This document shows, in pieces, positions 4,238 through 50,442 of a stretch of 64,000 nt of DNA (position 1 is its first letter; every line of letters starts with the position of its first letter). This DNA is from Nitrospira sp. (GTDB lineage: Bacteria > Nitrospirota > Nitrospiria > Nitrospirales > Nitrospiraceae), in assembly GCA_030123565.1 (NCBI GenBank), contig CP126122.1, positions 3,982,800 through 4,046,799 on the forward strand, in the 5' to 3' direction. The position numbers and the translations under genes were made by a program. The notes under the pieces were generated by a model that was not told the DNA's origin, searched no databases, and saw only the letters and a list, made by a program, of their open reading frames with translations.

Positions 4238-4738
4238 GCGCACAAAGGACCTAGGGTTCTCGTCCCGAAAGTCCTAGAAAGTGAATACTGTCCAGGAGTT
4301 GGGAGAAGAAGCGACGTAGGATGCTTATGATCGTCTGCTGCTTCCGTCGTTCTTGGGCGGTAGAGAAACGTTCACGGGGGAGCGACCATTGGCGCCGCGC
4401 GGCATCATTTTATCGGCCGGTGTCCTCAAGTCATTCGGTGGGGCCCCGGCACTGATGTCCCACTCAGAGGCCATGGGCGTCGACGGTCGAACCTTCGTCC
4501 TGCGAGGCATTTGGGTATTGATTCGCCGTTTCTCCGCTTCCACGTCATCCCTCACCTTGTTGGAAACCGCGAGCTTGTTTCCGCATTGCGTCTACGTCGG
4601 CGCACGTGTATGGCGAATAGTCAGCACGATAACACCCGATGCGCGCATGAATCAAACCCTCCGAGGCCGGCGCGCTTCTTGACAACCCCTTGCTGTTTGC
4701 TAAGGTTGCTACAGGCAACCCTCCTAGGTGTAATCAAT
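4238..4738. other. 500-bp divergent intergenic region
   Basis: Gap between the divergently transcribed nuoA and the OmpA-domain gene. It probably carries both promoters. A 76-codon minus-strand frame (4325-4555, GTG start) is open here. It has no clear ribosome-binding site and encodes a low-complexity basic Pro/Arg-rich sequence, so I do not call it a gene. A cluster of T and A near 4683-4740 precedes the OmpA-domain gene. Confidence 0.4.
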
Positions 4739-6193
4739 ATGAGTACATTGTCATCCATGCGCACCGGTTTGATCGTCCTGTCCTGCTGTCTCGGAGTCGT
4801 GAGGGCCGTTCCAGTTCATGCCCAAGACGCCCAAAGCGTTCGACTGGGGGAAGCAGCCCTGACCTATGCCGCCGGATCGATCCGGCAGGACATGCCGATC
4901 GAAGGCGTCGTCAATGTGATCACCGGGGACAACCAAATGTCCGGCAACCGGATGATGATCGGCTGGACCGGGACCGATACGCTCTATCTCAAGTTGAAGA
5001 ATCCCGGCGCTGCGGCCCTCGGCGATCTGTACACCGTCTATCGCCGATCGCGCAAAGTGTTTCACCCCGTAACCAAGCAGTACATGGGCTATATCATCAA
5101 CCGGCTGGGGGTGGTGCAAGTCATTCAAGTGGATCCTCTGTTGGTCGGCGTGAGGGTCGTCCGATCCTATGCCCCGTTCTCGCCCGGCGATCCGGTCGTG
5201 CGGTTCACTCCGCCTTCTGCGGAAGAATTTGTCGATATCCCCTCATCGGCGAGCGACATCGTGGGGATGGTCGTCGATTTGCAGTCCGATAAGAACATGT
5301 CGCTCGTGGCGCAATGGAATCTGGTGTATATCGACAAAGGGCAAGAAGACGGTCTCCGTCCCGGCGAGTATCTTGAGGTGTTCCGGACGGGCGGCGGATT
5401 GCCTGAGCGCAAAATCGGCGAAGTAAAGGTCCTTTCGACCGAGCCCCACACGGCCACCGGGTTGTTATCCAAATCCACAGCGCGGGTTCTGGTCGGCGAT
5501 CGCATTCGGTCCAAACGTGCTTCCACTGTCGAGGCGATGCAACCCGAGAGTGAGGATGCCGATTTTCATGATATAGCCACGGCACAGTCGGTGCCGGCCG
5601 GGAGGGTGGAGGCCGAATCACCCCCGTCGAGCGAGTCCCGTGTCATGAGCAAAGCGCGATTCGAACGAGGTCTTGGCGGCAAGATCAACCTCGATGATCT
5701 GGTGAATCAGCTGGAATATGAATCAGGAGAAGTGAAGGTGAAGCCGGCCGGCCTACCGGTTCTCGAGCAGCTGACGGAGTATTTGAAGAGCGCCGCCGTT
5801 CATCAGCTGGTTCGGGTGGAAGGTCACGCCGATAGTATGGAAATCGGCCCATCGCTCAAGGGACACTTTCCGACGAATTGGGAACTGTCCAAGGCGCGTG
5901 CGGCGGGAATCGTGCGGTACCTGATCGAACAGGGCGGAATGGATTCGGCACAACTGTCCGCCGTGGGCTACGGGTCGAGTCGCCCTGTAGCCAGCAATGC
6001 GACCGACGAGGGCCGCAAGAAAAATCGCCGGATCGAGGTCGTGATGTATTCACCGGAAGACAAGCCGCAGGCACAACCGGTGAAAGAAACGGTGAGCGAG
6101 AGCCGATCGAATCCATCTCAGTCGACCTATAGCCAGATGGGCATGACGCCGGACGATGCGGCAGTGGTCCCATCGGTTCCGGCAGCCCCGTAA
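4739..6193 (+). CDS. secreted protein with C-terminal OmpA peptidoglycan-binding domain
   Basis: Predicted 484 aa envelope protein. The ATG at 4739 opens a hydrophobic signal segment ending near VPVHAQ; a second ATG six codons later would also give a signal peptide. Residues about 30-280 form a beta-rich region with two LysM/FlgT-like stretches (GDLYTVYRRSRKV and EDGLRPGEYLEVFR), which resemble domains seen in other envelope proteins. A Ser/Pro linker follows. The C-terminal ~120 residues are an OmpA/MotB domain with RVEGHADS, NWELSKARA and KKNRRIEVV, the usual peptidoglycan-contact elements. Likely anchored to the cell wall. A strong hairpin follows the stop. The N-terminal function is unknown. 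Confidence 0.82.
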   Translation: MSTLSSMRTGLIVLSCCLGVVRAVPVHAQDAQSVRLGEAALTYAAGSIRQDMPIEGVVNVITGDNQMSGNRMMIGWTGTDTLYLKLKNPGAAALGDLYTVYRRSRKVFHPVTKQYMGYIINRLGVVQVIQVDPLLVGVRVVRSYAPFSPGDPVVRFTPPSAEEFVDIPSSASDIVGMVVDLQSDKNMSLVAQWNLVYIDKGQEDGLRPGEYLEVFRTGGGLPERKIGEVKVLSTEPHTATGLLSKSTARVLVGDRIRSKRASTVEAMQPESEDADFHDIATAQSVPAGRVEAESPPSSESRVMSKARFERGLGGKINLDDLVNQLEYESGEVKVKPAGLPVLEQLTEYLKSAAVHQLVRVEGHADSMEIGPSLKGHFPTNWELSKARAAGIVRYLIEQGGMDSAQLSAVGYGSSRPVASNATDEGRKKNRRIEVVMYSPEDKPQAQPVKETVSESRSNPSQSTYSQMGMTPDDAAVVPSVPAAP

Positions 6194-6362: not shown

Positions 6363-8666
6363 ATGTCCGACCAGCGTTCCTCCGTGAGCCAGCCGGTTTC
6401 TGTCGCTGCTGTTCCTGCCTATGTTGACGTGGTAGTGCCCCGCAGGCTCCATCATCCCTTCACCTATGAGATCCCTGCGGATCTCAAGGGCAAGGTGATC
6501 ATCGGACAACCGGTGATCGTTCCATTCGGTTCCCGAAACCTTCAGGGACTGGTCGTTGCGGTGTACGCCCGGCCTCCACAGGGCGCGCCGAACCGAGGAT
6601 TGAAAGCGATCCGCTCGCTGGCCGAGGCGTCGCAGGGTCACCATTTGACTCCTGCGCAACTGGATCTGAGCCGCTGGGTGGCAAAACGCTATGCCGCACC
6701 ATGGGGGCAATGTATCAAACTTATCTTACCCCCTGTTCATCAGGCCGGCCGGATTCAATCACGATACCTGCTGACGGAGCAGGGTTTGGCCTATCGCTCT
6801 TCCGTCGGGGGAGTAGGAGAGGTCGAGGCGCAGGTGCTGCAACGGCTCTCTCGTCGTCCCAAGGGCATCACGGCAGCCACCCTTGAACGTGACGGCAAGT
6901 CCTCTGTGATCTCAGCGTTGCGGGCGCTGATTCGCAAAGGATTGGTCCTTCGTCGGGAGGATGTCGTTCTGCATCGCGCCTCCCGTCCCAAGAAGAACGC
7001 GACTAACCGTATGGGGCAGGCTCCTTCTGCAGGGTTGGCGTTCGACGTCCCGCCTCCGATCGAAGCGGCCTCTTGGCCGGCTACCATGGAGGAAGCGTTG
7101 TCGCGAGACACCTTCGTTTCCTTGTTGGTGCAGGGGGTTCGTGACACGAGGGTCTGGTGTCTTGTGCAGGCCGCCCGAGAGACGATTCGTCGTGGGCGAT
7201 CGGTATTGGTTATCACGGGCGATGTCGAGAATGCGAGTCGGTTGGCCGGCGTCCTGACGGCAGCGGGAGAACATCCTCGTCTCTTGCATAGCGGGTTATC
7301 GGCCAAGGAGCGCGCGGCCATGTGGCAGGCGGTGCAGGATCGTTCGGCGACGATCCTCATCGGGACCCGCATGGCGGTCTTCGCGCCCATTGAAGGCCTC
7401 GGATTGGTGTGGGTGGAAGGAGAGGACGACCCCTCGCTCAAGGAGGAGCAGGTGCCTCGGTACCATGCGCGAGAGGTGGCACAGCGGCGTGCTGTCTGCG
7501 ATCGAGCGGTGCTCGTGCTGGCTTCGAACCATCCGTCTCTTGAAAGTTGGTCGGCGGTCCGGCAAGGCCAGATGACCGCTTGTGTCTATCGAGATCCGGC
7601 AGCCTGTCCGAACGTACAGATCATCGACCGGAAGGAACAGTCAAATGAACAGTCGTCCGGAACGTTGTTGTCGCCTCCCCTGTGTGACGGTATTCGAGAA
7701 GCCTTGCGGCAGAAGGCCCTGGCCATCCTGTTTCTGAATCGCAAAGGGTTTGCGAGTGTCTTGCATTGCCGGGATTGTGGAGCCATGCCGCAATGTGATG
7801 CGTGCAGCGTCGCGGTGACGTTTTACAAACGTCACAATCATGTGCGCTGCCATTACTGTGGACGGGTCAAGCCGGTGCCGGATCATTGCCTGCAATGTCA
7901 CTCTCTCAAGTTGGAGCCGGTCGGGGCCGGCACGGAGCGGATCGAGGAATCAGTCAGACGAATGTTCCCTCAGGCGCGCGTCGGTCGTGTGGACGGCGAG
8001 ACGATCCGCCGCCCGGCCGATGCACAGGCCTTCCAGCATCTGCTTGCCGCCGGCGAGATCGACATCGTGGTTGGAACGCAGATGTTGTTCCGATTGAGTC
8101 TTCCGCGACAGGCCTCGTTCGTCGCGGTGCCGGATGCGGATGCCGGTTTGCATATCCCGGACTTTCGCTCGGCGGAACGGACATATCATGGCCTGGTCGA
8201 TGCGGTTGAGTTGGCCAAGCCCGCTCATGCCGGAGGAGCGGTTCTGGTGCAGACTCGCTTCACGGACCATCCTGCGATGGTGGCCCTTGCCCACGGTGAT
8301 GAGTCGGTGTTTCTCGAACAAGAACTGTCGTTTCGGCAGATGTTGCAGTACCCGCCCTCTACGCATCTCGTCCGGCTCGACGTGTCTGGGACGGTCGAAC
8401 CGGCGGTGGCCCGGGCAGCCGATCGCTGGGCGACGTTGTTACGGACGGAGGTCGCTCGTCATAAAGGGGAGATCATCATCCTTGGACCGTCTCCTTCGCC
8501 CTATGCCTTGGCCAGGGGCCGGTATTGTCGGCAGATTCTGGTCAAATCGATCTCGGTCGAGGCGGGAAGTGAGATGGTCGTACGGACACGTGAGATTCTT
8601 GAAAGGGAGTCGCGGCAGGGGGGACTCCGGTTCGATATCGATGTCGAACCCGTTGCCATGACCTGA
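6363..8666 (+). CDS. priA: PriA-like primosomal protein N' with degenerate helicase motifs
   Basis: Replication-restart protein that recognises stalled forks and loads the replicative helicase. The product is 767 aa from the ATG at 6363. The N-terminal DNA-binding domain (VPRRLHHPFTYEIP) is normal. All eight zinc-binding cysteines are present as four CxxC pairs (469/472, 478/481, 496/499, 509/512). The helicase motifs are not. The Walker A loop is GVRDTRVW with no GSGKT; the DEEH box reads EGED; SATPS reads SNHPS; the motif VI arginine finger (normally AGRAGR) reads VELAKP. Known PriA ATPase mutants keep fork binding and primosome assembly, so I infer a loader without helicase activity. An alternative start five codons upstream (6348) is possible. 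Confidence 0.9.
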   Translation: MSDQRSSVSQPVSVAAVPAYVDVVVPRRLHHPFTYEIPADLKGKVIIGQPVIVPFGSRNLQGLVVAVYARPPQGAPNRGLKAIRSLAEASQGHHLTPAQLDLSRWVAKRYAAPWGQCIKLILPPVHQAGRIQSRYLLTEQGLAYRSSVGGVGEVEAQVLQRLSRRPKGITAATLERDGKSSVISALRALIRKGLVLRREDVVLHRASRPKKNATNRMGQAPSAGLAFDVPPPIEAASWPATMEEALSRDTFVSLLVQGVRDTRVWCLVQAARETIRRGRSVLVITGDVENASRLAGVLTAAGEHPRLLHSGLSAKERAAMWQAVQDRSATILIGTRMAVFAPIEGLGLVWVEGEDDPSLKEEQVPRYHAREVAQRRAVCDRAVLVLASNHPSLESWSAVRQGQMTACVYRDPAACPNVQIIDRKEQSNEQSSGTLLSPPLCDGIREALRQKALAILFLNRKGFASVLHCRDCGAMPQCDACSVAVTFYKRHNHVRCHYCGRVKPVPDHCLQCHSLKLEPVGAGTERIEESVRRMFPQARVGRVDGETIRRPADAQAFQHLLAAGEIDIVVGTQMLFRLSLPRQASFVAVPDADAGLHIPDFRSAERTYHGLVDAVELAKPAHAGGAVLVQTRFTDHPAMVALAHGDESVFLEQELSFRQMLQYPPSTHLVRLDVSGTVEPAVARAADRWATLLRTEVARHKGEIIILGPSPSPYALARGRYCRQILVKSISVEAGSEMVVRTREILERESRQGGLRFDIDVEPVAMT

Positions 8667-50323: not shown

Positions 50324-50424
50324 GGGGCCGGGCCCTGTGCAACAGAACCCTGTGAACCCCGCCAGGTCCGGAAGGAAGCAACGGTAAGCGGTCCGTTCTG
50401 TGTGCCGCAGGATCACCTGGCCCC
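50324..50424 (+). ncRNA. ffs: signal recognition particle RNA (4.5S-type)
   Basis: About 101 nt. Ends GGGGCC and GGCCCC pair. The conserved apical part AGGTCCGGAAGGAAGCAACG and the opposite GTAAGCGGTCCG with the GGAA loop are canonical for bacterial 4.5S RNA, the RNA of the particle that targets inner-membrane proteins with Ffh. Confidence 0.95.
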
Positions 50425-50442
50425 GCTAACTTCAAAATGAGA

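Follow-up and report, generated by a model that had tools for sequence, protein, structure and literature searches.

A predicted PriA pseudohelicase across the order Nitrospirales, with probably recurrent loss of the motor in the phylum

The PriA helicase is conserved nearly everywhere, although Escherichia coli in the laboratory can do without it, and its purpose is an old question that is raised again by a priA-like gene of Nitrospira sp. whose helicase motifs are degenerate: what would the only PriA of a genome do without its motor? The gene lies at 6363..8666 on the plus strand of the window, the whole stretch of 64,000 nucleotides that was analysed, and all its features given below are on the same strand. 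A sequence-only reading of the window had claimed that motifs I, II, III and VI are altered while the DNA-binding domain and the eight zinc cysteines are kept, that this reflects selection for a non-helicase function and not decay, and that the outcome may have arisen independently of the actinobacterial PriA, which it named as a precedent.

The open reading frame runs without interruption from the ATG at 6363 to the TGA at 8666 and encodes 767 amino acids that score 381 bits against TIGR00595 (cut-off 230), the sole match in the genome. The source genome is complete (one contig, 4.6 Mb) and possesses one PriA, and the second priA for which the sequence-only reading proposed to look was not found in it. 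The protein carries the domain set of PriA (primosomal protein N'), with three Pfam domains above cut-off: the 3'-DNA-binding domain (3'BD; PF17764, 6426..6731, residues 22-123, E 5.7e-21), the zinc ribbon (PF18319) and the PriA C-terminal domain (PF18074, 8355..8651, residues 665-763, E 7.6e-12). The zinc-binding cysteine-rich region (7767..7898, residues 469-512) keeps all eight cysteines, at residues 469, 472, 478, 481, 496, 499, 509 and 512, and these are conserved in 78/78 PriAs of the order, so that the claimed retention of both modules is borne out. PRK05580 PriA models reach 443 bits, whereas the highest score with the actinobacterial PRK14873 models is 171 bits, below their cut-off of 812; the protein is not assigned to the actinobacterial PriA, and the sub-model cut-offs of PRK05580 are likewise unreached. 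These family scores rule out the acquisition of an actinobacterial-type gene and support an origin independent of Actinobacteria. Just upstream of priA, an open reading frame at 4511-6193 (+) encodes, by eye, an OmpA-like C-terminal region, and a bacterial small SRP RNA (50326-50425, +) and four tRNAs lie elsewhere in the window.

The helicase motifs were read by alignment to PriA from E. coli and Klebsiella. Motif I, or Walker A, at 7134..7163 reads GVRDTRVWCL against GVTGSGKTEVY and lacks a P-loop, with an arginine aligned to the catalytic lysine; since the loop is shorter by one residue, the alignment here is uncertain by that much. Motif II, or Walker B (7416..7430), reads EGEDD in place of DEEHD, motif III (7524..7538) reads SNHPS in place of SATPA/S, and motif VI (8205..8222) reads VELAKP in place of AGRAGR, with both arginines gone, as the sequence-only reading had stated; motif V (8073..8105), absent from its list, is also degenerate and reads GTQMLFRLSLP in place of GTQMLAKGHHF. 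Motif Ib (GTRMAVF, 7362..7382), the RYHAR stretch between motifs II and III (7458..7472), motif IV (FLNRKGF, 7731..7751) and the DFRSAER stretch (8160..8180) are kept. A scan of the whole 767-aa protein for GxxxxGK[ST] and DExH returned no occurrence of either, and so offers no usable Walker A lysine or DExx box elsewhere, which would have spoken against the claim. The protein thus lacks the Walker A GSGKT, the Walker B DEEH and the motif VI arginines of an active SF2 PriA helicase, and it has the degenerate Walker A and Walker B within an otherwise kept PriA that characterize the Deinococcus-type pseudohelicase. Judged by its motifs, it is a pseudohelicase that has lost the ATP-handling residues of motifs I, II, III, V and VI, and presumably the ATPase with them.

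The search for PriA covered 296 genomes from the phylum and 29 from the genus, and more than 100 phylum PriA loci were read, outside the order usually from a single genome or a few in each family. The named relatives of the window PriA are Nitrospira MAGs, to which it is 68-69% identical. GSGKT is missing in all of the approximately 78 PriAs read from the order Nitrospirales (families f1, f2 and f3), and no relative with normal motifs was found among those read in the genus, family and order; the loss of the motor therefore covers an order and not only the source genome. Since all relatives carry the loss, a sequencing error or frameshift in the window gene is ruled out. Within the same class, the motifs are canonical in f4, f5, f6, f7, f9 and f10 and lost in f8; elsewhere in the phylum, they are lost in f15, f21, f25, f26, f27, f28, f29, f30, f31, f33, f35 and f38 and kept in f12, f13, f14, f16, f17, f19, f20, f22, f32, f34, f36 and f39. 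Outside the phylum, 77/77 PriAs have the Walker A lysine and both arginines of motif VI; 75 of these rows came from a genome scan, and E. coli and Klebsiella supply the other two. The scan patterns exclude motifs I, II, III and VI, and its rows, ranked by similarity to the query, are a sample and not a census. All three residues are also present in 29/29 canonical Nitrospirota PriAs, which were classed as canonical by these very motifs. Against this baseline, chance is excluded as a cause of the motif loss. No PriA match was present in G105 and G257 (family f1, genus g2; 99% and 94% complete), where complete loss of PriA or an assembly gap is possible, suggesting that some lineages may do without even the scaffold.

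The replacements are conserved within Nitrospirales. The Walker A lysine column holds Arg in 65/77 sequences, Glu replaces the first Asp of DEEH in 50/78 within a conserved E-x-E-D/E pattern, the Thr of SAT in motif III is His in 67/78, and Arg584 of motif VI is Leu in 73/78. Invariant in all 78, along with the eight cysteines, are the GTR of motif Ib, the Asn and Arg of motif IV, Glu572 and Gln597, and the DFRxxE glutamate is invariant across the PriAs of the order. In the other large losing clade (n = 14), the lysine column holds Glu in 12/14, the motif III Thr is most often Cys (7/14) and Arg584 is mixed, so that the replacement residues at these three positions differ between the two large losing clades. 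At the motif Ib position that corresponds to T303 of E. coli PriA, all losing clades have Thr and canonical PriAs mostly Ala or Val, and this Thr, that of GTR, is possibly a shared adjustment of the losing clades. The pocket for the SSB tail, which in Klebsiella PriA includes Trp82, Tyr86 and Lys370, is poorly kept in Nitrospirales, with Trp82 in 34/77, Tyr86 in 21/78 and Lys370 mostly lost, suggesting that recruitment may differ from that in E. coli.

The losing genomes fall into at least two clades (starred branches) on the RpoB tree. AU tests were run on 33-row sets with a simpler model than the full trees, which have 58 and 77 rows, and on the 33-row RpoB set a constraint placing all losing genomes in one clade was rejected (p-AU 3e-6). 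The PriA tree built without the motif columns (77 rows, mixture model) keeps the two large losing groups apart and needs three changes, the third being G280 of family f37. On the reduced PriA tree, with G280 set aside, a single group of both large losing clades is tolerated (p-AU 0.42), and the gene tree alone is therefore compatible with gene transfer or long-branch attraction. A single origin of the pseudohelicase, after which the gene passed from one large losing clade to the other, would account for that result; it is nevertheless an unlikely history, given the separation of the groups on the mixture-model tree, the rejection of one clade by RpoB, and the differing replacements in the lysine column (Arg against Glu) and at Arg584. 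The grouping of f8 with Nitrospirales has a support of 29 on the full RpoB tree and 98 on the reduced tree, and the data also allow f8 to group with canonical f7 (p 0.22), so we are unsure whether the loss in f8 was common with that of Nitrospirales or separate. The RpoB frames of f20 (L280, L281 and L282) are about 1724-1730 aa long, some 400 longer than those of other genomes, and their profile match is split between positions of about 220 and 255, indicating a large insertion.

Family f37 offers a possible intermediate. Its PriAs from G203 and G309 keep GSGKT, DEEQ and STPS but read AEKVGTG or AERVGTG in motif VI, whereas that of G280 (L292, G280:C22:7807-9807) reads HIRPGIRKREIY in motif I, with a broken P-loop, and has a TAA stop in the linker, which may be an error because the f37 assemblies are fragmented. 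G203 and G309 to G280 possibly form an erosion series of partial motif loss. Together, these data point to recurrent loss of the PriA motor as the more probable history, with at least two independent losses in the phylum, one in Nitrospirales with or without f8 and one in the clade of 12 families, and with f37 part-way; the sole PriA would then serve purely as a platform for fork recognition and helicase loading.

Loss of the motor could also mean that the gene is decaying, or that its helicase half is a remnant without a role, and selection was compared between domains in this regard. Omega in close pairs is 0.05-0.29 for lobe 2 and the zinc module, 0.07-0.41 for lobe 1, 0.09-0.27 for the 3'BD and 0.2-0.6 for the winged-helix region, which is the least constrained; priA is under purifying selection, with omega well below 1 in every domain. 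The median ratio of dN in lobe 1 to that in lobe 2 is 1.69 in 33 non-overlapping pseudohelicase pairs against 0.92 in 52 canonical pairs, which share members and are more distant on average, suggesting that the ATP-binding lobe is relaxed relative to the rest yet still constrained. An AlphaFold model (62 sequences) has a pLDDT of 87.5 and a pTM of 0.85, and every one of its nine top PDB matches is a PriA, fork-DNA- and SSB-peptide-bound forms among them, indicating a PriA fold over the full length. Decay draws on the relaxed lobe and on the interrupted priA of G280, from another family, but it is very improbable: the frame is open and full-length across the order, the cysteines and many helicase-lobe residues outside ATP handling are invariant, a complete fold is predicted, and dN/dS largely refutes it. 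The same evidence upholds the earlier claim of selection as opposed to decay; its second half, a non-helicase function, does not stand as worded, as nothing points to a new function, and the protein probably has the same restart role without the helicase.

The sole PriA is probably a pseudohelicase platform for fork recognition and replisome reloading, with strands opened by other enzymes. It would recognize stalled or recombination-made forks by their structure and recruit the replicative helicase DnaB together with DciA, a DnaB-loading factor found in 51/51 genomes tested, and any duplex opening would fall to enzymes such as RecG or a helicase of the UvrD type. The source genome possesses a RecG above cut-off and two UvrD-type proteins. 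That it binds forks and recruits DnaB with no motor of its own is most likely by analogy to Deinococcus radiodurans PriA, which has no ATPase and does not unwind yet binds fork DNA and DnaB (PMC4504706), and to E. coli mutants without PriA ATPase, which are viable and primosome-competent (PMC4504706). PriC was above cut-off in 0/51 genomes tested, and its absence from losing and keeping genomes alike sets it aside as an alternative restart factor; a compensating gain of UvrD-type helicases is ruled out by copy numbers that overlap between losing and keeping genomes. In G251, whose PriA is also a pseudohelicase, RecG (G251:C1:1762921-1764940) is seemingly in pieces with a stop, and in G062 and G093 (f27 and f28), where the PriA motor is also lost, no RecG was above cut-off and the best matches are Mfd-like.

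Two further readings concern what the altered protein does. It may serve another role, such as regulation or another DNA transaction, and in favour of such repurposing is that the ATP site is altered as well as the pocket for the SSB tail; this is improbable, however, for the only PriA of a genome without PriC, with an unchanged domain set and fold, when the Deinococcus pseudohelicase retains fork and DnaB binding (PMC4504706). Slightly less probable still is that ATP is used through a remodelled pocket, as the order-wide conservation of the replacements (Arg, E-x-E-D/E and His) might suggest, because the P-loop glycines, the Walker A Lys and Thr and both motif VI arginines are all gone and K230R alone abolishes the ATPase of E. 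coli PriA (PMC4504706). Residual or altered nucleotide binding may persist in the Nitrospira PriA.

With a restart platform as the preferred reading, nitrifiers of the genus Nitrospira, which are ecologically important, probably restart forks without a PriA motor, and the automatic annotation 'replication restart helicase' is misleading for their PriA. A phylum in which clade-wide loss of the motor stands beside canonical and partly eroded sisters, with no PriC, constitutes a natural comparative experiment.

Among known systems, canonical PriA from E. coli and Klebsiella (PDB 6dgd, 4nl4 and 8fak) shares the domain order, zinc module and predicted fold of the Nitrospira protein (TM 0.69-0.72 by query, 0.76-0.82 by target), whereas the latter lacks the ATP site and keeps the SSB-tail pocket poorly. 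Actinobacterial PriA, from Tsukamurella (NZ_LR134460) and compared residue by residue outside the tree, likewise lacks motifs I, II, III and VI and keeps the eight cysteines, but has partly lost the residues of motifs IV and V and of the DFRxxER stretch that the Nitrospira PriA retains. The closer experimental precedent is not Actinobacteria, as had been proposed, but the Deinococcus-Thermus PriA pseudohelicase (Lopper 2015, PMC4504706), in which motifs I and II are likewise degenerate within a PriA architecture, whose Walker A Lys is replaced by Arg, as aligned in 65/77 Nitrospirales sequences, and which is proposed to keep a restart role. The comparison covers motifs I and II; in the Nitrospira protein the degeneration extends to motifs III, V and VI, and the present case differs in lying in another phylum and in being order-wide with probably a second clade. 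A literature search of partial coverage returned nothing that connects Nitrospira with the loss of PriA motifs, a result that speaks only weakly for novelty. The Nitrospirales PriA is a new, probably independent case of a known kind of pseudohelicase, and what is new here is the extent of motor loss in this phylum and its likely repeated origin.
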